From: Actinoplanes liguriensis
Lineage (GTDB): Bacteria; Actinomycetota; Actinomycetes; Mycobacteriales; Micromonosporaceae
DNA: 10,113 bases
NCBI GenBank assembly: GCA_000715855.1
Contig: KL571257.1
Location: forward strand, 14,359 to 24,471
Direction of reading: 5' to 3'
Shown: in pieces, positions 20 through 10,113 of the stretch
Position numbering within the stretch: the stretch's first letter is position 1
How the letters are laid out: each line of letters begins with the position of its first letter
Position numbers and translations under genes: made by a program
The notes under the pieces: model-generated
Seen by the model: the letters and a program-made list of their open reading frames with translations, nothing else
Database searches by the model: none
What the model was told of the DNA's origin: nothing

Positions 20-463
20 AGATGTCGTGGCCGTGGCGCCGAGGCGGATGAGCACCTCGTTCTCCGCCACCTCGCGATGCCCGATCACCGTTCGGGCCTC
101 GGTGACGAGGGCGGCGAGGCGTTGGTCGGTTTCGGCGTGGCCGATCGTTGCCTTCTGGAGCTGGTCGACGTACTCCAGGCGGGCATCTTCGGCATCGGAG
201 TCCGTGCAGCGCAGCCGCAACAGCCCCGCCAGGATCCGCCGATCGAGCACGCTGTCCTCGTAGTACAAGTCCCGGACCAGGGCAAGCGCGGCCGCGTCTG
301 TCGGCAGGCCGGCGATTTCCAGTCGCCGAAGCTGGTGGGCAGCCGTGTTGTAGATCCACATGATCTCCGCCATGTCGTCCTGCGACAGCGGCGCTGTCCG
401 CAGGATGGCATCGAGGCGTCGTCTTAGGCGCATGAGGTCGTCCACCACAGCGATGCTGTTCAC
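20..463 (-). CDS. M3-type peptidase paralogue, N-terminal part, cut by contig end
   Basis: This is a partial gene: 148 codons are visible and the frame is open into the adapter at base 18. It starts with GTG at 463, inside the stop of the upstream ureohydrolase (GTGA, 4-base overlap), so the two are probably translationally coupled; an in-frame ATG lies at 433. The product is helical, charged and without a signal peptide. By eye it aligns along its length with the first ~160 residues of the M3 peptidase at 6828-8603. Shared blocks are LSQD..(A/V)EI...YN, LDRRIL or LLDRIL, LRC(T/S)D.(D/E)AE..RL.Y..QL.K, and a final RLG.(T/S)A. The two are therefore paralogues. The catalytic HExxH would lie in the missing part, so activity cannot be judged. 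It is likely cytoplasmic, with a peptide-processing or peptide-binding role shared with the other copy. Confidence 0.8.
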
Positions 464-1425
464 GAGCTTTCTCCCTGTCGGCCGGCCCACGTGAGCAGGT
501 GCAGAAAGATATGCGCGGCACGTGAGGCGTCGGCGAGCGTCTTACGGTCTCGTGCATCGCGGGCGGCCACGAATTCGACGACGTCGAAGCCGACGAGGTG
601 GTTCGACGCGAGAGCGACATCGATGAGTTCAAGCAGGGTACGCATGGCCAGGCCGACATCGGCGGGATAACCCGTCGACGACATCTCGGCGTCGTCCAGC
701 ACGTCCACGTCCACCGTCACGTAGAGATCGCCGCCCGAGCCCACCACGGCCCGGAACGCGTCGGCGTCCAACTCGGGTGCCAGAACGGGCACCTGCCGGC
801 CGACCGAGGCAAGGTACGACGCCATCGCGGGTGCGCTGGTGTCCTCCACCACCGCATACGGGCTGACCCCGACCTGCAGAAGCCGCCCCGGGCCCAGTAC
901 ATCGGCGACGTGCGACATGACGTTGGTGTGGAAGATCGGATCCCTGGCCGCTCGGGGGTCACCAGGTGCGCCGTCCCAGGTCTGGAGGTCGAGGTGGTGG
1001 TCGAACTGAAGGACCGTGAACGGTTCCCGCCGCGCGGCGAGGGCGGTGACCACCGGGAGGGTCACCGTGTGGTCACCGCCGAGAACAGCCGGGACCACCT
1101 GGTCAGGCAGAGCTGCGATGACTGCACGGATCTGGTCCAGCACCATCGGCACCGGAGCGTCACCGAACTCGAGGTCGCCCAGGTCGACGATCTCGGCCAG
1201 CGCCGGAACGCCTCGGCGGACATCGATCAGTGTCGGCTGTCGCGCTCCCCAGCTGTAGGCCTTGGACACCGTACGCAGGAAGTAGGGCCCGTTCTCGGCA
1301 CCCCCGTGCGGGCTGCCCAGTGCCGTTCCTGCGCCGAGCACCACCGCGCGGGTTCCGGACGGGATCTGTTTGATTCCGGCGAAGGGTAATCCGCCGAACG
1401 GCAGGCTCTTGCGTAGTCGTGCCAC
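460..1425 (-). CDS. Arginase/agmatinase-family ureohydrolase
   Basis: A binuclear manganese hydrolase of 321 residues, the usual family length. Family members release urea (or a related product) from a guanidine such as arginine or agmatine. All six canonical metal ligands are visible: H119 in GGDHT, D142, H144 and D146 in FDHHLD, and D239 and D241 in VDVDVLD. GFDVVEF near residue 279 matches the family's GxDxVE motif. The family's DP..PGTGTP loop is altered to DDAEMSSTGYP, so the substrate may be unusual. I chose the GTG at 1425, which has AGGGG 7 bases upstream; the frame is open to a GTG at 1605, but that extension looks unlike the family. The gene leads the leftward operon and overlaps the M3 paralogue by 4 bases. 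Ureohydrolases that convert arginine to ornithine inside RiPP precursors (OspR type) are known, so a peptide substrate is possible here, but this is inference. Confidence 0.85.
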   Translation of the reverse strand: MARLRKSLPFGGLPFAGIKQIPSGTRAVVLGAGTALGSPHGGAENGPYFLRTVSKAYSWGARQPTLIDVRRGVPALAEIVDLGDLEFGDAPVPMVLDQIRAVIAALPDQVVPAVLGGDHTVTLPVVTALAARREPFTVLQFDHHLDLQTWDGAPGDPRAARDPIFHTNVMSHVADVLGPGRLLQVGVSPYAVVEDTSAPAMASYLASVGRQVPVLAPELDADAFRAVVGSGGDLYVTVDVDVLDDAEMSSTGYPADVGLAMRTLLELIDVALASNHLVGFDVVEFVAARDARDRKTLADASRAAHIFLHLLTWAGRQGESS

Positions 1426-1628
1426 GTAAGCACCCCTGTTCCGTGGTGGGCCGCGCCGTTGACGCGACTTCCGAACGCACTGCCGTATGCATCCCCTGGA
1501 CACAACAGCCAGGATGAATGCCGCCGACAGCCTGCGGGCTTCTCGGCAAGCAGATTCAACCAAACTCATAAAAGCCAAGCTCAAGAAGCTTTTTCCGCTC
1601 TTCACGGATCCGCCACGAGCCTTGCAGG

Positions 1629-1658
1629 ACGTTACGTGAGGCCCGATAGCCCAGTCAA
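1629..1658 (-). promoter_or_regulatory. Candidate leftward promoter for the ureohydrolase operon
   Basis: On the minus strand TTGACT (1658-1653) is followed after 18 bases by TAACGT (1634-1629), a fair match to an actinobacterial housekeeping-sigma promoter. Transcription would start near 1622 and leave an untranslated leader of about 195 bases if the GTG at 1425 is the start. That long leader weakens the call or suggests a leader function. Confidence 0.4.
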
Positions 1659-1662
1659 GTAA

Positions 1663-1676
1663 ACATCGATGTACAT
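1663..1676. promoter_or_regulatory. Interlocked palindromes, candidate operator
   Basis: ACATCGATGT (1663-1672) is a perfect 10-base palindrome. It overlaps ATGTACAT (1669-1676), a perfect 8-base palindrome. The pair sits between the -35 boxes of the two candidate divergent promoters, a position where a dimeric regulator could control both operons. No regulator gene is present in the window. Confidence 0.35.
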
Positions 1677-1697
1677 GATGGTGATGCCAATCCCGCC

Positions 1698-1726
1698 TTG
1701 ACCCCCGAATTCCTATGTGTTAGGTT
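1698..1726 (+). promoter_or_regulatory. Candidate rightward promoter for the oxygenase/peptide operon
   Basis: TTGACC (1698-1703) is followed after 17 bases by TAGGTT (1721-1726). This is a good -35/-10 pair with the TAGnnT form common in actinomycetes. Transcription would start near 1733 and give a leader of about 80 bases before the GTG at 1814. Confidence 0.55.
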
Positions 1727-1813
1727 GAATTTGAAACGGGGAACAGCGCATTCTGCCGCGCCTTCCACGATCCCCGGTCTGGGTGTTGTCCAGACAAAAT
1801 CATGGAGGATTTC

Positions 1814-2656
1814 GTGAGCACTGAATCACGCGATGAATTCGAGATGAAAGACTTCGACAAAGAAGTTTTCTTCCGCGATTTTTGGCGCAAAAAACCGCTG
1901 TATATTCACGGTGGCGCAGCCTCGTTCGCCGGAAGGAAGTGGTCCGGAGCGAACTTCGACGCGGCGCTCGGCCGGGCCCGCGGCGCCGGCCACCACGTCC
2001 AGGACCGCGCCGGCCAGGTCACCTTCATCGAGAAGGTTTCCCTGTTCAACGACGATCTGACCAGACGCACGAAGGACTTCGCCGACCTGTTCGGCGTCCC
2101 TGAGACGTGGTTCGACACCGTCCGGACGCACGCGCCGGACGGCATCGGAGCACACTTCGACCACAGCGACAACTTCGTGCTCCAGCAGGAGGGGACGAAG
2201 CTGTGGTCACTGGCCTCACCCGAGAACATCAGCCGCGCCGAGATAGCGCAGCGCATGATGAATGTACCCGGCATCGGCTCTCATGAACTGCCACTCGACC
2301 CGCCGGTGCAATTTACCCTCGAACCCGGTGATCTGCTGTACATTCCCTTGCTGTGGCTGCATTCCGGCGTGTCGACGGGGCCATCCCTCAGCCTTTCTTT
2401 AGTTTGCCCTGCCATTCCTCTCTACACGGCCGTAATGCCCTTCGTGGAACACATCGCGAAAAACCGCGCACTCGGATACCAACCCATTCCGGCATTTCAT
2501 CGATACATGTCCGAGGAAGAAAGAACCGTGGCCTCCGAAAAGCTGCGGGCTGCCACTGATGCGTTTCTTTCCCGATTGGTCGGTCAAGATCTGCGTGAAG
2601 CTCTCAGCACCTCGCAGAGGGAACATCTGATCGGCACCCGACATCCGGTTGATTGA
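1814..2656 (+). CDS. JmjC/cupin_4-family Fe(II)/2-oxoglutarate oxygenase
   Basis: A likely protein or peptide hydroxylase of 280 residues. FFRDFWRKKPLYIHGG near the N-terminus is the typical opening of the cupin_4 (PF08007, YcfD/NO66-like) JmjC family. The iron ligands are visible as H114 and D116 in AHFDHSDN, and a distal H183 in YIPLLWLHSG. Family members act in the cytoplasm and hydroxylate residues such as Arg or His of ribosomal proteins, using 2-oxoglutarate and O2. I chose the GTG at 1814 because GGAGG (1804-1808) lies 5 bases upstream; an in-frame ATG at 1802 would contain that site. It is the first gene of the rightward operon, 116 bases before the small peptide, which I infer to be its substrate. 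Its two ends are richer in A/T codons than the genes downstream, which may mark separate acquisition. Confidence 0.85.
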   Translation: MSTESRDEFEMKDFDKEVFFRDFWRKKPLYIHGGAASFAGRKWSGANFDAALGRARGAGHHVQDRAGQVTFIEKVSLFNDDLTRRTKDFADLFGVPETWFDTVRTHAPDGIGAHFDHSDNFVLQQEGTKLWSLASPENISRAEIAQRMMNVPGIGSHELPLDPPVQFTLEPGDLLYIPLLWLHSGVSTGPSLSLSLVCPAIPLYTAVMPFVEHIAKNRALGYQPIPAFHRYMSEEERTVASEKLRAATDAFLSRLVGQDLREALSTSQREHLIGTRHPVD

Positions 2657-2681
2657 ACTGCGGCGCTTCTCGGCGAGAGAT

Positions 2682-2699
2682 TGCGCGCCGGCGTGCGCA
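2682..2699 (+). repeat. Small inverted repeat downstream of the oxygenase gene
   Basis: TGCGCGC and its partner GTGCGCA frame a 7-pair stem (one G-U pair) with loop CGGC, 25 bases after the oxygenase stop. A perfect palindrome, CTCCCGGGAG, follows at 2703-2712. No T tract follows either. They may form part of a structured leader before the small peptide gene or weak 3' ends for the oxygenase message. Confidence 0.4.
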
Positions 2700-2726
2700 C
2701 AACTCCCGGGAGAGCACGCGATGTGT

Positions 2727-2752
2727 CTTCTTCTGGCGCCCGCCAGAAGAAG
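2727..2752 (+). promoter_or_regulatory. 12-base perfect inverted repeat just upstream of the peptide gene
   Basis: CTTCTTCTGGCG (2727-2738) and CGCCAGAAGAAG (2741-2752) are exact inverse complements separated by two bases; in RNA the innermost pair would open to give a 4-base loop. The stem ends 5 bases before the strong ribosome binding site of the small peptide (2758-2766). With no T tract it does not look like an ordinary terminator. An mRNA 5' stabiliser, a processing site, an attenuator or a protein-binding dyad are all possible. Confidence 0.65.
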
Positions 2753-2757
2753 GTCTA

Positions 2758-2766
2758 GGAAAGGAG
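2758..2766 (+). promoter_or_regulatory. Very strong ribosome binding site for the small peptide
   Basis: GGAAAGGAG contains AAAGGAG, close to the ideal anti-16S match, and ends 6 bases before the ATG at 2773. It is among the best sites in the window and fits a product needed in far larger amounts than the enzymes. It also fixes the start of this short gene. Confidence 0.8.
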
Positions 2767-2772
2767 TAGCCC

Positions 2773-2958
2773 ATGGAAACCTACTCGTACGAGAAGAAGC
2801 CGGCCTTCTTCCGCTGCCTCTGCGCCTACATGTTCTTCGAGGCGGAGGCCAGCTCGGACGAGATCGTCGAGAACCTCAACTCGACCCTGTCGCTCGACGC
2901 CGACCCGGAGCTCGACGCGGAACTCGACGAGATCCTCGGCCTGCAGGAAGTCCGCTAG
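2773..2958 (+). CDS. Small peptide, candidate RiPP precursor (61 aa)
   Basis: I do not recognise the family. The peptide has 61 residues and two unlike halves. Residues 4-22 are basic and aromatic: YSYEKK, then FFRCLCAYMFF, with Cys at 15 and 17 and Arg at 14. Residues 23-60 are acidic (13 Asp/Glu), Cys-free and helix-prone, with ELDAELDEIL at 46-55, and the last residue is Arg61. An acidic, Leu-rich helix is typical of RiPP recognition segments. If it serves that role, the core may lie at the N-terminus with a C-terminal follower, as in bottromycin; a conventional C-terminal core ending in Arg61 is the alternative. There is no signal peptide. The gene lies between an oxygenase and transport, protease and tailoring genes, with inverted repeats on both sides and an excellent ribosome binding site. 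A non-precursor small regulatory protein is possible. Confidence 0.7.
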   Translation: METYSYEKKPAFFRCLCAYMFFEAEASSDEIVENLNSTLSLDADPELDAELDEILGLQEVR

Positions 2959-2967
2959 CCGGCATCC

Positions 2968-2999
2968 GGCCCGGCCGGCCCCACCGGGCCGGCCGGGCC
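2968..2999 (+). terminator. 14-pair GC hairpin after the peptide gene (attenuator or terminator-like)
   Basis: GGCCCGGCCGGCCC (2968-2981) and GGGCCGGCCGGGCC (2986-2999) are exact inverse complements around the loop CACC, starting 9 bases after the peptide stop. The stem is all G/C and no T run follows, as is common for actinomycete 3' ends. Its place between a highly expressed short gene and the enzyme genes suggests partial termination or 3' protection, giving more peptide message than downstream message. Confidence 0.7.
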
Positions 3000-3032
3000 C
3001 CCTGACCACCTCGGCAGGCCGTCGACCCGCAC

Positions 3033-3046
3033 CGGCAGGCCTGCCG
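3033..3046. repeat. Perfect 14-base palindrome before the TPR gene
   Basis: CGGCAGGCCTGCCG is its own inverse complement. Its left part, CGGCAGGCC, also occurs directly at 3012-3020. It lies 22 bases before the ATG at 3069. It may be a protein-binding dyad or only a product of the very GC-rich spacer. Confidence 0.35.
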
Positions 3047-3068
3047 CCGGATCGAAAGCTTGCGTGTC

Positions 3069-4295
3069 ATGCCAACGTCGTCAGCACTCCAGACCAACGC
3101 CTTCCAGGAAACAATTCTGGGCCTCACGTACGCCGAGCGGCCGGACCCGATCGATCTCTTCTCGCGTGCATGCGTGGAGCAGTACCAGGAGTTCAGTACG
3201 GAACACTTCGGTTACCTGCTCACCCAAGTCTTCGAACCCAACGTGCTGCTGGAGTCCGCGCTGCTGGCCGACGTGCCGTACGAGTCGGTGGCGATGCTGG
3301 AGCAGCATCCCACCGAGCCCATCACGCGACTCGCCGAGCTGGTCGCCCAGCGGGACGATCTCGCCATGCCCGGCCTGGTGAACCTGGCCGCGGCTTTGAT
3401 CAGTATCTCCCGTTTCGCGGTCGCCTCCGCGGTGCTCGACACCGCCGCCGCCCGATCCCGTGAGCCGCGCGAAGCCTTCGAGACGGCCATGCTGCGGTTC
3501 ATCGTGGCCAACCGGCGAGACGATGGCGAGGGATCGGCCGCGGCGTTCGCCGGCATGCGGGCGGCGATCGAGGCCGGGACTCTTCCGGATCACCGCATCC
3601 TGGACGCCTGCACCCAGGCGATGGTGTGGTATCTCAAGCGGCGCGAGATTCCCCGGTCGACCTTCACGTGGTTCGTGCGGACCGGACATCGCCTGGTGGA
3701 GTCCCGCCGGGACATCAGTCCCGGGGCCCTGTCCGCCTGGTATCGAGGACTGGCGATGATCCCGGCCGCCAAGGGGGACGCACATACGACCCAGCGGTAC
3801 ATGACCTATGCCCGCCGGTCCGCGGACGACATGGTGGCGCAGCGACCCTTCGCGTACGAGCTCCATCTGGTGAAGACATACCACGAGTCCTCCATCAAGG
3901 AATACATGTACGTAACTCCGGATCCGGACCGGGCTGTCGACGCGGCGCTTAAATTGATCGATCTCGATCCTGCGTGGGCGCCGAGCTATGGCGAGCTTGG
4001 GGACGCCTGCGTTCGGTTCCACAAACTGGACATCGCCGCGGAAGCCTACGAAAGGGCTATCGAGCTCGGACCGCCCTATTTCGGCCATCACCTCCTACAG
4101 GCCGCACGCGTGCAAGCCGCCCGCGGTAATGAGGACCTGGCACTGGAGCATTACGAGAAGCTGATGGATCTCAATCACACAAATGAGGCTCTGCGGCGCG
4201 AGGCACGGGAGCTTTCGGAGAGAACTTTCCGTTCTGCGGGCACGAGGCTCGCGCCGGCGCCGGCCGGATCGCAGGACGAGGACAGCCCCGCGTGA
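3069..4295 (+). CDS. TPR-repeat (helical repeat) protein
   Basis: An all-helical protein of 408 residues, without signal peptide or membrane segments. The C-terminal third shows tetratricopeptide units: one with WAPSYGELGDACVRFHKLD and AAEAYERAIELGP, the next with LLQAARVQAARGNEDLALEHYEKLMDLN. The first two thirds look like degenerate helical repeats and match nothing I know. TPR proteins bind peptides or partner proteins, so a role in presenting the precursor or assembling the enzymes is reasonable but unproven. The start is uncertain: the ATG at 3069 has no clear ribosome binding site (GAAAG is 10 bases away), and an in-frame TTG at 3060 is the alternative. It is the first gene after the hairpin at 2968-2999 and overlaps the transporter by 4 bases. 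The last ~20 residues are a Pro/Ala/Asp-rich tail. Confidence 0.75.
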   Translation: MPTSSALQTNAFQETILGLTYAERPDPIDLFSRACVEQYQEFSTEHFGYLLTQVFEPNVLLESALLADVPYESVAMLEQHPTEPITRLAELVAQRDDLAMPGLVNLAAALISISRFAVASAVLDTAAARSREPREAFETAMLRFIVANRRDDGEGSAAAFAGMRAAIEAGTLPDHRILDACTQAMVWYLKRREIPRSTFTWFVRTGHRLVESRRDISPGALSAWYRGLAMIPAAKGDAHTTQRYMTYARRSADDMVAQRPFAYELHLVKTYHESSIKEYMYVTPDPDRAVDAALKLIDLDPAWAPSYGELGDACVRFHKLDIAAEAYERAIELGPPYFGHHLLQAARVQAARGNEDLALEHYEKLMDLNHTNEALRREARELSERTFRSAGTRLAPAPAGSQDEDSPA

Positions 4296-5656
4296 TGAAA
4301 CACACCGATCTGACCGTGCGCAACTTCGGCAGCCTGTCCACCACCGTCTTCATGATCAGCCTGCTCAGCGTCGGGTTCGGCACCGTCGATCTGTTGTTCG
4401 TCGCTCCGCAGGGCGAGACGCACGTCGCGGCAGTTGGTCAGGGCGCCGTCATCGTCTCCGCCGTCATCACCTTCTTCGGAGGTGTCGTCGACGTCTTCTC
4501 CAGTCGGCTGTCGATCGCCGAGGGCGCGGGCCGGCGCTCTCAACAGCTGCCCGTGCTGCTCGGTGCCCTGGTCCTGCTACTGATCGCGAGCGAACTGCTC
4601 GGCGTGCTGCTCAGCCTGGGCGTGTCACCCTTCCTGTCCTGGACGGGTCAGCCGGCCGAGGTGGTGCCGCTGGTGACGGATTACATCCGGATTCATCTGT
4701 GGAGCGTCGCGCTCGTGGTCGGCTACAGCGCCGTCATGGCAGCTTTGAAGATATGCGGCCTGAAGAACTACTCCCTGGCCGTCCTGACCATCGGCTTCGG
4801 CGCCAACGTGCTGCTCGACTGGCTGTTCCTCTACACCGCCGTCGCCGATCGGTTCCCTTCACCGGAGTACGCGGTCTCGATGGCGACCGTGGTCGTCGAC
4901 GTCGTGATGGGGGTGCTCGGCATCGCGGTGTTCCGATGGCAGGCACGACGGCAGAATTACCGCTTCGCCAGGCCCGGCGGCACGGAAGTAGCGGCGGAGG
5001 CACGCTCCATGGCGCGAGTCAGCTGCGGGATCGGAATCCGGCATCTCAACGACTGGATGGGAGCCGTTGTCCCGACCCTGTTCATCGGTTCCCTCGGGGT
5101 CGGCGCGCTCGCCGCGACCGCGGTGGCCACCCGCCTCTACACCCTGTTCTGCCGTGTGCCACAGGCCTGTGTCTCCGGCGCGTTCGTCTTCTACGGCTAT
5201 GCGGTGGGCGGTGACACCGGGCAACTCCGATCGACGGCACGCCGCCTGCTCCGGTATGCGGCGATCCCGACAGCCGTGGCGGCGCTGCTGGTCGTCCTCT
5301 TCTCCCGCGACCTGGTCGCCCTGTTCGGCGACGGCCGTCTGGACGAGAATGCGGCACGCCGGCTGCTCTTCGCCTATCTGGTCTTCCTGCCCGTCTACCT
5401 GCCCGGGGCCGTCTTCGGCGAGATGCTGACCGTGCACCAGCGGGCCGGCCTGCTCTTCTGGGGATCGACGATCGCCACCTACGCCATCATCATCCCGCTC
5501 TCCTGGTACGGGGTGTTCGTCCTCGACTCAGCCGTCTTCGCGGTCGCCGCAGGTGGACTGCCCAACCTGGTACTCGCACCGCTGTTCTGGCGTGCTCTGC
5601 GCCGTCGGCACTGGGCCGAGCCGGCCGTCACCGACACGGGGGTCCGCGTTGCTTAG
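4292..5656 (+). CDS. MATE-family multidrug/peptide exporter
   Basis: A polytopic inner-membrane protein of 454 residues with about 12 hydrophobic segments, the normal MATE size and architecture. The N-terminal segment with VGFGTVDLLFVAPQGETHVAAVGQG resembles the MATE first-helix region (D...G..G...LAA.G), and ALKICGLKN....LTIGFGANVLLDWLFLY resembles the family's internal G...N..LD..F pattern. MATE proteins export organic molecules using a H+ or Na+ gradient. The GTG at 4292 overlaps the TPR stop (GTGA) and has GAGGA 9 bases upstream; the adjacent ATG at 4295 is also possible. Here it is the only transporter, so it is the likely exporter of the product and may give self-protection. Most RiPP clusters use ABC exporters, so a MATE exporter points to a small, fully trimmed product or an unusual export order. 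Confidence 0.85.
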   Translation: MMKHTDLTVRNFGSLSTTVFMISLLSVGFGTVDLLFVAPQGETHVAAVGQGAVIVSAVITFFGGVVDVFSSRLSIAEGAGRRSQQLPVLLGALVLLLIASELLGVLLSLGVSPFLSWTGQPAEVVPLVTDYIRIHLWSVALVVGYSAVMAALKICGLKNYSLAVLTIGFGANVLLDWLFLYTAVADRFPSPEYAVSMATVVVDVVMGVLGIAVFRWQARRQNYRFARPGGTEVAAEARSMARVSCGIGIRHLNDWMGAVVPTLFIGSLGVGALAATAVATRLYTLFCRVPQACVSGAFVFYGYAVGGDTGQLRSTARRLLRYAAIPTAVAALLVVLFSRDLVALFGDGRLDENAARRLLFAYLVFLPVYLPGAVFGEMLTVHQRAGLLFWGSTIATYAIIIPLSWYGVFVLDSAVFAVAAGGLPNLVLAPLFWRALRRRHWAEPAVTDTGVRVA

Positions 5657-5829
5657 CGCACCCGCCTTCCGGCACGACCCGGTCAAGGCCGTCATCCCGG
5701 GCCGCGGCCGGCCTCCGATCCAGTGGACGAGGGAACCGGTGGTCTGCGGTTACCGGCCGCTGACCTACCGGAACGAGACACTGGGCCGGGAGATCGCCGT
5801 ACCGGTGAGCTCGACTCCTGCTGTCGTCG
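5649..5829 (+). pseudogene. N-terminal fragment of the beta-propeller gene, upstream of an apparent frameshift
   Basis: Frame 5649-5828 encodes 60 residues that belong to the next gene but lie one base out of frame with it. It begins at a TTG at 5649 that overlaps the transporter end by 8 bases and has GGGGG 6 bases upstream. It ends with the propeller strand VPVSSTPAVV. Removing one G at 5829/5830 joins this directly to VAQGIVAASDDG, a normal propeller blade. The shift is either an assembly error or a real mutation. Confidence 0.7.
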
Positions 5830-6831
5830 GTGGCGCAGGGCATCGTCGCTGCCAGCGACGATGGTTATGTCCGCTTCTACACCCGGGATCTGACCAAGGT
5901 CTATTGGGAGCGACGTGTCGACAGCAGCGTCTACGCCTCCCTGGTCGTCGATGCCGCGCGCGGTCACGTCATCGTGGCGGCTACCAGCGGGATGGTGGTG
6001 TGCTTCGACCTGCGCGGCCGCACGGTGTGGTCCGCGGACACCGGATCGCCGGTGTTCGCCACCCCGGCCGTCTCGCCGGATGCCGGACTGCTGGCGATCT
6101 CCGCGTTCCACAGCAGGTTCGTCGGTCTGGACCTGGCCACGGGAGCGCTGGTCATCGACCGGCGACTGCCTGAGCCATGGCATGCGCGGCACGGCGGGTC
6201 GGCGTCCTATCGGGATCCGTACGCGAGCCCGGTGATCACCGAATTCGGTGATGTGATCATCGGTTGCGCCGAGCACGTCCTGTGTCTGGCACCTGACGGA
6301 GAGCAGCGCTGGCAGTACACGATCGGGCGCTCGATCCGTGCCTCCCCGGCCGCGATCCACGAGACGGGCGAGGTCGCGGTGTGCGCTGTCGACGGCACCT
6401 GCACGTTCCTGGACAGCCGCAGCGGCCGGGAACGGGCCACCCTGCGATTGGGTTCCAAGGTCACGGCCAGTCCGGCGGTGTCCGGCCAGATCCTCGCCAT
6501 CGGCACCCAGGACGACGTCACGACCGGCGTGGACGTGCGTACCCACGAGATCCGGTGGCGTTCGTCCCAGGGCGGCCCACGCTCGTACACCTCGTTCAGT
6601 GTGCTTCCCGGCGGGGACTTCATCGCCACCACCGGCCGGGGCAACGTCCTGTGCCTGCGGCGTGACGACGGCTTGTTCCTGTGGGAGACCAGCCAGGTCC
6701 TCGGGCTGCCCGACCACGACCCGACCCTGGACATCACTCCGATGGCGAGCCCGCAGGGCTACCTGTACTGCGCCTCGTACTCCGGTTACCTGTACTGCTT
6801 CGGCTTTGCGCCAGTTGAGGAGGCCGCATGA
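5830..6831 (+). CDS. PQQ/WD40-like beta-propeller protein (main part, frameshifted relative to its N-terminus)
   Basis: Repeated blades of the PQQ-like propeller type are clear: SDDGYVRFY, VVCFDLRGRTVWSAD, VLCLAPDGEQRWQY, TCTFLDSRSGRE and GYLYCASYSGYLYCFGF. A motif like (A/S)(T/S)P(A/V)V recurs about once per 40-45 residues. Counting the upstream fragment there are eight: SSTPAV, YASLVV, FATPAV, YASPVI, RASPAA, TASPAV, YTSFSV and ITPMAS. That suggests an eight-bladed ring of 393 residues in total. The GTG at 5830 has no ribosome binding site, starts mid-blade and leaves a 173-base gap in an operon of overlapping genes, so it is probably not the true start. There is no signal peptide, so the protein is likely cytoplasmic, and no catalytic motif is visible. 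It probably acts as a protein- or peptide-binding scaffold. It overlaps the peptidase by 4 bases (ATGA). Confidence 0.75.
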   Translation: MAQGIVAASDDGYVRFYTRDLTKVYWERRVDSSVYASLVVDAARGHVIVAATSGMVVCFDLRGRTVWSADTGSPVFATPAVSPDAGLLAISAFHSRFVGLDLATGALVIDRRLPEPWHARHGGSASYRDPYASPVITEFGDVIIGCAEHVLCLAPDGEQRWQYTIGRSIRASPAAIHETGEVAVCAVDGTCTFLDSRSGRERATLRLGSKVTASPAVSGQILAIGTQDDVTTGVDVRTHEIRWRSSQGGPRSYTSFSVLPGGDFIATTGRGNVLCLRRDDGLFLWETSQVLGLPDHDPTLDITPMASPQGYLYCASYSGYLYCFGFAPVEEAA

Positions 6832-8603
6832 TGCCCGCCGACATGATGACCGAACCGCCGCGGGAGACCATCGTCGAGATCGAGGCGTCGTTGGAGGCGA
6901 TGATGGCCCGGCTGAGGGCGATCCTGACGGAGGAAGGGCTCAGTCAGGACACGCTCGTCGAGATCATCTCGCTCTACAACAACGTCGCCTACATCTTCCT
7001 TTACCTGGAGGCAACGGACGACTTCGGGAACTTCGAGCGCCTCAAACCCTGGCGTGAGCGGTTCTACGACGACGGTGAACTGCTGGACCGGATTCTGGCG
7101 ATGCTGCGAGAGCTGCGCTGCTCCGATCCCGAAGCCGAGCAGTCGCGCCTGAACTACATCGCGCAGCTGGAGAAACGGCGTCGTCACGATCGAGACAGTG
7201 ATCGGCGGATCGACGAGCTTCTCAGCGAGGCAAAGGAGATCGCCGAACGCCGGGAGCAGCATCAGGTGGCTCTGCTGGAGCGCCTGGGGGTGTCCGCGGG
7301 CCAGGCCCGGCCGGCGGTGCTGTTTTACAAGCTCATCAGTGGTAACGGCAATCCGCTGACCCGGCAGAAGTTGACCCGCGCCTGGGCGCTTCAGCGCGAC
7401 CGGCATGCGTCCGAGCTGGCCTCGATCGTCGATCAAATGATCGGGATCAGGTGGGTACGGAGCACGGCCGAGGGCTATGACAGCGTTCTGGCGCAGACCC
7501 TCGAACGGTGCCGGGTGTCGGCCGCCGAGGTGGAGATCTTCCTGGAACAGTCGCTGCAGCAGGCTCTGGTCAGCTTCGCCGCCATGGAGGCGGAGGTACA
7601 GCAACTCGTCGGCCCGGTCGAGCGCCCGATCGAACACTTCGAGTACGCGATCCGCACGATGACCCGCGCCGCAAGGACGCCGTTGTTCGCCTTGGACGAC
7701 TGCTTGGACTACATCTTCCGCGTCACGCACAGTGTCTTCGGCCTTGACCTGGAGCGCTTCCAAGAACCGGGACGTGACCTCATCACGGTGCTGGTCCGCA
7801 GCAACGGGGTCGACGTCGGTCAGATCAAGCTCGACCTCTGGGTGACCGGTGGGAAGGCGTCGGGCCCCAACCACACCAGGGGCCTCCGCAACCGCACCGC
7901 GTGGGCGGGGCTCACCCAGTTGCCGGTGGCCTTCGTCTCCTGCCACTTCACACCCGGAGCGGGCGGGACGAACGGCATCACGTTCCAGAACGTCCACAGC
8001 CTCTTTCACGAATTCGGCCACGCGGTCAACCATCTGCTGGTCCGCAAGCGTGTCTCCGACCAGTCCGGGCTGGAGTACTTGCCGCCCGAGCGGCTGGAGT
8101 ACCTGAGCATGTGGTATGAGAAGTGGGCCTACCATCCGGAGTTCGCTCGGTACGTGCCCGGCGCCGACGCCGCGACGCTGGCCCGCTGCGCGCGCCTGGT
8201 CATGCTGGAGACCCGCCGGACCTACGTGGAACGGGCCGTCCTGGCGCTCATGGATCTGAACGTGCACCGGCACCGCGATCGTGGACTGCGGGAGTCCTTC
8301 GACCAGCTCGATCTGCGCTTCGACGTCTCCCGCTACCTGTCCTTCGGCGAACTGCCCGAGTACTTCACCTGGCCGATGTACGTCACCCACCCCGGGGCGA
8401 ACTTCAGCTATCTCTGGGGGTCCGCTGACAGCTGTACGAAATTCGAGCCGTTTCGGGGCTTGTCCCTGAGCGACATCGCGGAGCGGTCCGACCTGCGGGC
8501 ACTGTTCCATTCGTCCTTCGACTTCGAGGCGGCCTCCGGCACCCCCGATCCGATCGCTGTCTACACCTTCTACGACGAGGCGCATCTGAAGGACCTCGCA
8601 TGA
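6828..8603 (+). CDS. M3-type zinc metallopeptidase (oligoendopeptidase F-like)
   Basis: A cytoplasmic zinc endopeptidase-like protein of 591 residues, the usual size for PepF/M3 enzymes, which cut short peptides. The zinc site is visible as HEFGH at 394-398 with E424 in LEYLSMWYEKW as the third ligand, matching HExxH plus a Glu about 25 residues on. The C-terminal SYLWGSAD (527-534) and ASGTPDP (569-575) echo the family's YSYLW and GGS.DP motifs. The family's G-Y-rich substrate loop before YSYLW is replaced by VTHPGANF, so specificity probably differs. The first ~160 residues are charged, helical and paralogous to the partial gene at 20-463. GAGGAGG lies 5 bases before the ATG at 6828, and the start overlaps the propeller stop (ATGA). 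The likely role is removal of the recognition segment of the precursor or its breakdown; an inactive binding role is less likely because the site is intact. Confidence 0.85.
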   Translation: MMPADMMTEPPRETIVEIEASLEAMMARLRAILTEEGLSQDTLVEIISLYNNVAYIFLYLEATDDFGNFERLKPWRERFYDDGELLDRILAMLRELRCSDPEAEQSRLNYIAQLEKRRRHDRDSDRRIDELLSEAKEIAERREQHQVALLERLGVSAGQARPAVLFYKLISGNGNPLTRQKLTRAWALQRDRHASELASIVDQMIGIRWVRSTAEGYDSVLAQTLERCRVSAAEVEIFLEQSLQQALVSFAAMEAEVQQLVGPVERPIEHFEYAIRTMTRAARTPLFALDDCLDYIFRVTHSVFGLDLERFQEPGRDLITVLVRSNGVDVGQIKLDLWVTGGKASGPNHTRGLRNRTAWAGLTQLPVAFVSCHFTPGAGGTNGITFQNVHSLFHEFGHAVNHLLVRKRVSDQSGLEYLPPERLEYLSMWYEKWAYHPEFARYVPGADAATLARCARLVMLETRRTYVERAVLALMDLNVHRHRDRGLRESFDQLDLRFDVSRYLSFGELPEYFTWPMYVTHPGANFSYLWGSADSCTKFEPFRGLSLSDIAERSDLRALFHSSFDFEAASGTPDPIAVYTFYDEAHLKDLA

Positions 8604-9244
8604 CCGACGAGCGCAGCGTCTACGCCAGGGCGGTGCTCGGGCCGCGCGACGATCTTCTCGATGATGTGCTGCGCCGTTCGCTGCTCGACCGGGAGCTGCC
8701 GACCATCATGGTGGACGACGAGACCGGCCGGCTCCTGCAACTGCTGACCCGGATGATGCGGCCACAGCGCGTGATAGAGGTCGGCACGCTGTTCGGCTAC
8801 TCCGCGATTCACATCGCCCGCGCCATGCCACCGGGCGGCCGGATCACCACCCTCGAACGCGACCCGGCGCCGGCCGCGATCGCCCGGGAGAACTTCGCGG
8901 CCGCCGGTGTTCAGGAGCGGATCGAGGTGGTGGTGGGTGACGCCCTCGGCTACCTCCGAACGGTCCCCCGGGAGAGCGTGCACATGCTCTTCATCGATGC
9001 GGACAAGGCTTCCTATCCCGCCTATCTGAAGGCCGCCTATCCCCTACTGGCACCGGGCGGTCTCCTGATCGCCGACGACGCCTTCGCCGACGGTGACTTC
9101 AGCGCCGAGAACGGCGAGCGCGGCGAGCCGGGCAGACATCCGGGGATCACCACCTACAACCGGGCGGTGGGACGCAGTCCTCAACTCTTCTCTGCTCTCG
9201 TCCCGACCGGCACCGGTCTCATGATCAGTCACAAGGAGTGGTGA
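8600..9244 (+). CDS. Class I SAM-dependent O-methyltransferase (COMT/CCoAOMT-like)
   Basis: A cytoplasmic methyltransferase of 214 residues, the normal length for the Methyltransf_3 / COG4122 family. The SAM-binding motif VIEVGTLFGYSAIHIA is at 58-73, with acidic E60. Candidate divalent-metal ligands are D133 in FIDADK, and D159 and D160 in LIADDAF, in the places of the family's D...DN set; N187 follows in YNRAV. The family typically methylates catechol or other hydroxyl oxygens, and some members methylate other acceptors. Here the acceptor could be a Tyr or hydroxylated residue of the peptide, or an Asp/Glu side chain, all inferred. The start overlaps the peptidase stop (ATGA), and the stop TGA directly abuts the next ATG, so expression is coupled. 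It is distinct from the PIMT methyltransferases known in some lanthipeptide and graspetide clusters. Confidence 0.88.
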   Translation: MTDERSVYARAVLGPRDDLLDDVLRRSLLDRELPTIMVDDETGRLLQLLTRMMRPQRVIEVGTLFGYSAIHIARAMPPGGRITTLERDPAPAAIARENFAAAGVQERIEVVVGDALGYLRTVPRESVHMLFIDADKASYPAYLKAAYPLLAPGGLLIADDAFADGDFSAENGERGEPGRHPGITTYNRAVGRSPQLFSALVPTGTGLMISHKEW

Positions 9245-9994
9245 ATGGGCACGAAGCACGCTCTGGTCACCGGGGCGAGTCGCGGCCTGGGCCATGAGCT
9301 CGCTGTGCACCTGACCAAGGCCGGCTGGTCCGTCACAGGTTTTGCACGGCGACCTCCGGACGAGCTGGGCAGCCTGGTTCCGTTCGACTACTTCCAGGCG
9401 GACCTCAGCACTCCGGAGGTCCTTCCGGTGATCCTGGGACGTGTCGGCGGGCCACTCGACCTGGTGGTGCACTGCGCCGTACACCACGAGGCGTCGATGG
9501 CGTCCGGGCTGACGGCCTCCGAGATGGCGTTCCGGGTCAACGCCCTGACCCCCTATCACCTGAGCGAGGCGCTGTTGAAACGGCAGCCCGCCGAACGGTT
9601 GCTGTCCGTCATCATGATCAACTCTGAGTCGATCTTCCACGCGGACCGGCACTCCGCGGTCTACGCGGCGAGCAAGGCCGCGCTGCGACCGCTGGCGGCC
9701 GGACTCGCCGAGTCCTGCCGGTCACGCAACGCCAGCGTCGCGACCGTCCTGCTGGGACCCCTGGCCGACGAGAAGAAGCTAGCCGATCTGCGGCGCGTGG
9801 CGCACCAGCGCGGCGTCACCGAGGACGAGATCACCAAGGTGTTCCTGCGGCGGTCCAACCCTGACCTGGTCATCGAGTCCCTCATCGACTACGAGGCATG
9901 CGTGCGGACCGTGGAGTACGTGAACAGCTTGGGACGAGTGGCCAACGGCATGGTCTGCCGCTTGGACGGCGGATCAGCCGGATCGCTGATCTGA
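9245..9994 (+). CDS. Short-chain dehydrogenase/reductase (SDR)
   Basis: An NAD(P)-dependent oxidoreductase of 249 residues, the classical SDR length. The Rossmann motif TGASRGLG is at 9-16. R14-type basic character next to the nucleotide loop (S12-R13, and ARR at 34-36) suggests NADPH preference, but weakly. The catalytic set is visible: N99 in RVNAL, a Ser at 127/129 in INSES, and Y140 with K144 in VYAASKAAL. The usual NNAG motif is replaced by HCAVHH at 77-82, a clear departure. The ATG follows the methyltransferase stop without a gap, with AAGGAG about 6 bases upstream. A plausible job is to oxidise or reduce a hydroxyl/carbonyl made on the peptide, for example by the oxygenase, though it could act on a small precursor molecule instead. 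No signal peptide or membrane segment is visible. Confidence 0.88.
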   Translation: MGTKHALVTGASRGLGHELAVHLTKAGWSVTGFARRPPDELGSLVPFDYFQADLSTPEVLPVILGRVGGPLDLVVHCAVHHEASMASGLTASEMAFRVNALTPYHLSEALLKRQPAERLLSVIMINSESIFHADRHSAVYAASKAALRPLAAGLAESCRSRNASVATVLLGPLADEKKLADLRRVAHQRGVTEDEITKVFLRRSNPDLVIESLIDYEACVRTVEYVNSLGRVANGMVCRLDGGSAGSLI

Positions 9995-10027
9995 GCGCGA
10001 CAGTCGACGAACTTTGGGGAGTGTGAA

Positions 10028-10113
10028 GTGTCGGAGACAAAGCAGGTGCTGTGGCCGGCGATGCAGCCGGTCGACATGCGAGGACGCGACGACCTGTGTT
10101 CGGTCGCGGCGAA
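10028..10113 (+). CDS. Start of an unidentified gene, cut by the window end
   Basis: A reading frame opens at GTG 10028 and stays open to the window end (28 codons plus 2 bases). GGGGAG at 10016-10021 lies 6 bases upstream, and codon third positions are mostly G or C, as in a real gene here. The visible start reads VSETKQVLWPAMQPVDMRGR and continues DDLCSVAA. I do not recognise the family from this little. It follows the SDR stop by 33 bases on the same strand, so it probably belongs to the same operon and may be a further biosynthetic enzyme. Confidence 0.6.
   Translation, partial: MSETKQVLWPAMQPVDMRGRDDLCSVAA

Follow-up and report, generated by a model that had tools for sequence, protein, structure and literature searches.

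Bottromycin-type ribosomally synthesised and post-translationally modified peptides (RiPPs) carry the core near the N terminus of the precursor, followed by a long C-terminal follower. Biphenomycins are ortho-tyrosine biaryl tripeptides that are made with an MNIO enzyme, a B12 radical SAM enzyme, an arginase and a JmjC oxygenase. According to the excerpts of PMC12707348 and PMC12257519, their clusters (bip, bpm and pbs) encode a short precursor with an Arg adjoining a Phe, an arginase converting Arg to ornithine (Orn), a JmjC or cupin oxygenase hydroxylating Orn, and a TPR protein; Orn hydroxylation is placed after the arginase step. Biphenomycin-like precursors without this Arg also occur without the arginase and the hydroxylase (excerpts of PMC12257519). 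The present analysis concerns a stretch of 10,113 nucleotides from the draft genome of Actinoplanes liguriensis (contig KL571257.1, 14359-24471), referred to as the window, and in particular a gene for a 61-residue peptide. It is flanked by genes for an arginase, a JmjC oxygenase, an M3-fold zinc peptidase, an O-methyltransferase, an SDR, a MATE exporter, a beta-propeller protein and a TPR protein. With a probability of roughly 0.7, this cluster directs the biosynthesis of a RiPP from the 61-residue precursor, belonging to a family of which no description turned up in the papers searched. There is good support for a RiPP-type cluster whose precursor is real and conserved, and the product is most likely a small antibiotic-like molecule derived from a short gene-encoded peptide. 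Among the titles listed from the open-access PubMed Central (PMC) literature no description of such a cluster was found; those listed for M3 peptidases with RiPPs gave none, and those listed for the peptide motif were unrelated.

Precursor peptide family

An earlier note on this DNA, made from the letters alone, had singled out the peptide for its strong ribosome-binding site. This reading holds: a Shine-Dalgarno sequence, AAAGGAG, lies at 2760-2766, six bases upstream of the ATG. A single-sequence search with the peptide retrieved the peptide itself and one relative of 59 amino acids (72% identity). A two-row profile matched the peptide of a second genome, G288, which was not in that profile, at an E-value of 5.3e-9. 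A three-row profile recovered 60 peptides from 304 candidates (threshold E<=10), none of them weaker than E 0.008; two were rows of the query, which leaves 58 further relatives.

The motif AFF is present in all 60 peptides and is followed by Arg in 40 and by Pro in 20. An alignment of 49 of the 60 peptides (11 were dropped) has seven invariant residues, A11, F12, F13, F22, E23, L51 and L55. The N-terminal third holds the conserved stretch PAFF-(R/P)-xxx-AE-x-FFEAEA, and the C terminus an acidic helix, LDAELDAIL. Conserved blocks and variable stretches are both present, and conservation is spread along the whole peptide. The structure model of the peptide is of low confidence (mean predicted local distance difference test, pLDDT, 68.1); in it residues 1-17 lack regular structure and residues 45-60 form a helix. 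A Cys-x-Cys triplet directly follows the Arg (window 2815-2823) in the window peptide and its close relatives P0002 and P0121, and in none of the other triplets listed.

Between the near-identical loci of genomes G1165 and G1434, the peptide gene differs by five synonymous and no nonsynonymous changes. The ratio of nonsynonymous to synonymous polymorphism (pN/pS) was below 1 in 27 of 28 sequence pairs, a weak signal, the gene being short. Because 58 further relatives were found by profile and the near-identical loci differ by synonymous changes only, the open reading frame (ORF) is beyond chance, and on sequence grounds it is a real, conserved gene.

The stop codon is followed by a GC-rich stem-loop, with a folding energy of -40.7 kcal/mol for 2959-3010 (z -5.4). 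Hairpins with z of -3.8 or lower also follow the peptide gene at G827, G288b and G1279. Judged from the folding model, the element is a probable attenuator or mRNA stabiliser.

Co-occurrence of the peptide and the enzymes

Eight genomes were compared, the window's own (G000; 12.4 Mb, 556 contigs, the window lying on contig C65) and G288, G827, G1063, G1006, G1165, G1434 and G1279. In the 354 genomes of the window's family, searched at E<=1e-40 for the M3 protein and at E<=0.01 for the peptide, each of the two marked the same two genomes, G000 and G288; the profile search found the peptide in none of the other 352. Peptide searches in 394 genomes of another family, 70 genomes of one of its genera and 392 genomes of another genus (the three draws overlap) led to the remaining six loci. 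The 70 genomes of G827's genus yielded nothing besides G827, and of 396 genomes drawn phylum-wide the window's own was the single one to match. A first contig scan with the M3 protein gave no confirmed relative; an alignment-based M3 scan was swamped by generic M3 peptidases, and its at least 80 loci were not used. For 15 of the 31 peptides on contigs longer than 5 kb, one of them the window, the longest contig of the genome was exactly as long as that of an M3 relative's genome.

The M3 protein, the O-methyltransferase and the TPR protein were found in all eight genomes. Propeller and SDR are encoded in seven, the exception being G1165, where the contig ends too early, and MATE likewise in seven, being missing at G288. 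Loci that keep the enzymes without a nearby peptide gene were looked for: in 7/8 genomes the peptide gene is either inside the enzyme operon or next to it, six of the eight having been chosen by peptide search, so that the peptide is present there by construction. The TPR gene at L007:8188-9353 (G288) consists of two overlapping pieces in different frames, and this draft gene looks interrupted.

Arg/Pro switch, arginase and JmjC oxygenase

Whole-genome searches of the eight genomes detected the arginase (E<=1e-20) in all four genomes with an Arg-type peptide and in none of the four with a Pro-type peptide. The JmjC protein (E<=1e-10) was detected in three of the four Arg-type and in no Pro-type genome. 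A concatenated tree of the eight loci has the same Arg/Pro split. This covariation and the same dependence in biphenomycin-like precursors make Arg14 the likely target, and by analogy the arginase is likely to act on it. The C-terminal Arg of the window peptide was also considered as the arginase substrate and was ruled out, as it is not kept in most of the family. The JmjC oxygenase, whose closest solved relatives are the histidyl hydroxylases NO66 and MINA (the L16 arginine hydroxylase being a weaker match), probably hydroxylates the resulting ornithine. Within a Pro-type cluster, two adjacent and distantly related genes were noted (L107:9010-10216 in G1434, also in G1165), one of which matches DUF6445.

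M3 enzyme

Among 7996 candidates scored, 118 proteins matched the M3 protein at E<=1e-30, a count that includes the M3 protein itself. The names of the relatives point to Streptomyces, Kitasatospora, Micromonospora, Actinokineospora, Streptosporangium, Nocardia, Pseudonocardia, Frankia and one Chloroflexi metagenome-assembled genome. The alignment model was built from 52 of the 118 proteins, and six proteins of 520 amino acids or less were left out of the motif counts and the tree. The zinc motif HE(L/F/I/M/V)GH is present in 111 of the 112 full-length relatives and a PGANFxY-type loop in 87. In the structure model (pLDDT 91.9) the fold matches M3 structures, and the HExGH motif with its downstream Glu is present; the best E-value in the PDB was obtained for the organellar oligopeptidase 4ka8 (template modelling score 0.69 of the query).

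One relative, P0098 (818 amino acids), combines M3 and methyltransferase domains in one protein. The fusion suggests that the two enzymes may work together.

Gene content of the locus

The features of the window are collected in Table 1. Of the functions named in the earlier note, JmjC oxygenase, ureohydrolase, O-methyltransferase, SDR and MATE exporter were confirmed by Pfam, the matches to Arginase, JmjC_2, MatE, PQQ_2, Peptidase_M3, Methyltransf_3 and adh_short all lying above the curated cut-offs; all NCBIfam matches of the window proteins were below cut-offs. Two repeat-scaffold proteins had been named as well, and here the propeller is clear, whereas the TPR assignment is marginal (best match 26.5 bits against a cut-off of 27). 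The note had also counted two M3 peptidases; one is a whole gene, while the second is only a fragment, split by an assembly gap, its remaining part lying at C65:12877-14118.

Table 1. Features of the window (positions counted from its first nucleotide)
Feature	Position	Strand	Basis
Putative precursor peptide gene, 61 amino acids, Arg type (KKPAFFR ... FFEAEA ... ELDAELDEIL)	2773..2958	+	60-member family; Shine-Dalgarno sequence; homologous ORFs in seven further genomes
GC-rich stem-loop, 14 bp, directly 3' of the peptide stop	2968..2999	+	folding energy and z
Arginase-family enzyme (ureohydrolase), probable start near 1425	460..1425	-	PF00491, 8.3e-38, 131 bits
JmjC oxygenase (2-oxoglutarate/Fe type by family)	1802..2656	+	JmjC_2 PF08007, 1.2e-16
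TPR protein, candidate scaffold or recognition protein	3060..4295	+	marginal TPR matches
MATE exporter	4292..5656	+	MatE PF01554, 2.7e-18
PQQ-like beta-propeller protein, frame interrupted near 5814-5840	5649..6831	+	PQQ_2 PF13360, 1.9e-22
M3-fold zinc peptidase, cluster-specific clade	6828..8603	+	Peptidase_M3 PF01432, 1.3e-17
Second M3 gene, N-terminal fragment at assembly gap	20..490	-	37% identity to M3 residues 21-158
O-methyltransferase	8600..9244	+	Methyltransf_3 PF01596, 2.7e-32
SDR oxidoreductase	9245..9994	+	adh_short PF00106, 5.9e-18

The left edge of the window is an assembly artefact: positions 1-18 adjoin a run of N and match the Tn5/Nextera mosaic end. The first 40 kb of the scaffold contain 14 runs of N. 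Compared with its G827 homologue, the propeller gene falls into two pieces in two frames; judged from the reading frames, the switch is a frameshift or an assembly error. The listed arginase ORF begins too far upstream; its start is probably near 1425, because homology begins about 60 residues into the listed frame (in two of three relatives).

To the right of the window follow a class III aminotransferase, a KASIII-like gene (below NCBIfam cut-offs), a carrier protein and a carbamoyltransferase. To the left, beyond the second M3 gene, a prolyl-oligopeptidase-type protein and a pyridine nucleotide-disulphide oxidoreductase are encoded. An NRPS-like (nonribosomal peptide synthetase) reading frame was recognised by eye elsewhere on the scaffold. 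At the other loci, an aldo-keto reductase gene lies beside the cluster in G827 and G288, a DegT-type aminotransferase gene in G1063, P450 genes in G288 and G1006, and adenylation-domain genes in G288. Genes for OtrA-like GTPases adjoin cluster genes at two of the eight loci, at L008:3718-5700 (G288) and L101:14361-16310 (G1006). The two proteins are 46% identical to each other and score below the NCBIfam cut-off (761 and 756 bits against 900).

Proposed biosynthesis and alternative explanations

A small conserved precursor gene beside genes for modifying enzymes was found, as is typical of RiPPs in the broad sense, and the earlier suggestion of a RiPP cluster is largely supported by the peptide family and its linkage to the enzymes, a modified peptide remaining the presumed product. 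The chemical steps, the core boundaries and the product given here are predictions. The likely core would lie in the PAFF-(R/P)-xxx-AE-x-FFEAEA stretch, and the acidic C-terminal helix would probably serve as a follower for enzyme recognition. The window belongs to the Arg subtype, in which the arginase would turn Arg14 into ornithine, which the JmjC oxygenase would then probably hydroxylate. One or both M3 zinc oligopeptidases may excise a short modified piece, to be tailored by the O-methyltransferase and the SDR together with an aminotransferase or aldo-keto reductase that varies between loci, and the product would be exported by the MATE protein.

The OtrA-like ribosome-protection GTPases possibly confer self-protection on the producer, and their presence at two loci gives a faint hint of a ribosome-acting antibiotic. 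A bolder version of the proposal is doubtful, if conceivable: that the M3-fold enzyme, O-methyltransferase, SDR, beta-propeller and TPR protein form a new module defining a RiPP class, in which an altered M3 enzyme does more than trim (e.g. by altering the backbone or the C terminus of a tiny core) and yields a small ribosome-directed antibiotic against which the OtrA-like GTPases protect.

Several observations weigh against a RiPP pathway of this kind. No RiPP recognition domain was among the listed Pfam and NCBIfam matches of the window proteins. Fewer peptides (60) than M3 relatives (118) were found. In the draft genome G288 the peptide lies on a contig (C221) separate from that of the enzymes, where it adjoins an M3-type gene only distantly like the M3 gene of the window. 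The association of M3 protein and peptide in the 354 genomes, which in itself speaks for the pathway, gave a Fisher p of 1.6e-5, a value affected by the G000 and G288 peptides having been rows of the profile used; the informative parts of this test are therefore the G288 match with the earlier profile and the 352 negatives. For the Arg/arginase covariation the Fisher p of 0.029 ignores kinship, and with G1165 and G1434 near-identical the Pro group is effectively three. The eight Pro-type leaves of the M3 tree form one clade (one Fitch change on 22 labelled leaves), and thus the covariation represents one evolutionary event. G827 is of the Arg type and has no JmjC homologue. One of the 28 peptide-gene pairs has a pN/pS above 1, and at four of the eight loci (G1063, G1006, G1165 and G1434; z -2.0 to +1.0) the hairpin after the peptide gene does not stand out. 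Finally, a hybrid or a neighbouring pathway could be indicated by the carrier-protein, carbamoyltransferase, KASIII-like and adenylation-domain genes nearby.

A different explanation takes the peptide to be a small protein with a carrier, scaffold or regulatory function, bound or modified by the enzymes; other building blocks would then give the exported product, for instance through the KASIII, carrier-protein and aminotransferase genes next to the window. Conservation along the whole peptide would suit such a role, as would the carrier protein and carbamoyltransferase downstream of the window and the recurrence of class III aminotransferase and KASIII-like genes at G000, G1006 and G1434 (KASIII also at G1165). 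However, no close homologue of the class III aminotransferase or KASIII was found in the examined stretches of G827, G288 and G1279, and G1063 has merely a 28% aminotransferase match, whereas peptide, M3 protein, methyltransferase and TPR protein persist throughout; moreover, the R/P switch tracks the arginase, as expected of a substrate. This explanation is judged unlikely. Still less probable is a signalling or immunity system in which the M3 proteins would be peptidases for protection or processing and the peptide would act as their substrate, inhibitor or signal. One of their solved relatives, 5l43, is a dipeptidyl carboxypeptidase of the M3 type that takes its name from the K-26 pathway, in which it presumably acts, but biosynthesis explains better why an arginase, a methyltransferase, an SDR and an exporter share one operon.

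A chance or unrelated ORF at a locus making a non-ribosomal product could be imagined from the NRPS-like frame on the scaffold and the adenylation-domain genes at G288. It was rejected as highly improbable on the strength of the 60-peptide family and the synonymous-only change between near-identical loci, to which the linkage with the enzymes adds. Membership in the biphenomycin type was given equally little credence and was rejected by the MNIO and radical SAM searches, even though arginase, JmjC oxygenase and TPR protein stand beside a short peptide with Phe-Phe-Arg and follow the same Arg/arginase rule. Genome-wide, MNIO had no match in G000 and G288, and the other six genomes have one match each, on a different contig or at a distance of about 43 kb (G1279) or more. 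Radical SAM enzymes gave 158 matches in the eight genomes, 27 of them in G000; among the matches listed, which omit the weakest few of the 158, none lies on the cluster contig C65 and the nearest to any cluster is about 40 kb away, in G1063. The Pfam scan covered ten window proteins, seven further scaffold proteins and ten neighbours at other loci, the remaining flanking frames being unscanned. The earlier statement that the usual RiPP enzymes are absent thus stands for radical SAM on C65 among the matches listed, and for LanB/LanC/LanM, YcaO, lasso and ATP-grasp enzymes among the Pfam matches of the scanned proteins only, no genome-wide search having been made for them.

If the RiPP reading is right, the family is one whose shared enzymes lie outside the marks usually searched for, and a genome-mining set of 60 precursors and 118 M3 marker proteins is ready.

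Comparison with known systems

A resemblance to bottromycin-type RiPPs exists only if the core assignment is right; unlike in these, YcaO, for which no genome-wide search was made, was not found among the Pfam-scanned proteins. With the biphenomycin RiPPs, as far as the excerpts of PMC12707348 and PMC12257519 describe them, the locus shares the short precursor with its Arg adjoining Phe and counterpart families of the arginase, JmjC oxygenase and TPR protein; arginase and JmjC oxygenase together accompany the Arg precursor in three of the four Arg-type genomes, and the arginase in all four. It differs from them in that the window's genome has no MNIO, no radical SAM gene is near among the matches listed, and the core motif FHAFRF occurs in none of the 60 family peptides, which have AFF(R/P) instead. 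The arginase belongs to PF00491, whereas BipC is described in the same excerpts as a UPF0489 protein with TPR. An M3 enzyme stands where biphenomycin clusters have TldD, for which the ten window proteins gave no Pfam match, and methyltransferase, SDR and propeller are additional.

A post-translational arginase in a RiPP pathway is also represented by the peptide arginase OspR of landornamide, as cited in the excerpts of PMC12257519 and likened here by description only. The M3 enzyme itself shares its fold, the HExGH zinc motif and the downstream Glu with the M3 oligopeptidases, namely the organellar oligopeptidase 4ka8, thimet oligopeptidase and Dcp. The clade of the cluster is set apart by its PGANFxY-type loop, in place of which the aligned organellar oligopeptidase has a longer loop rich in His, Gly and Tyr.

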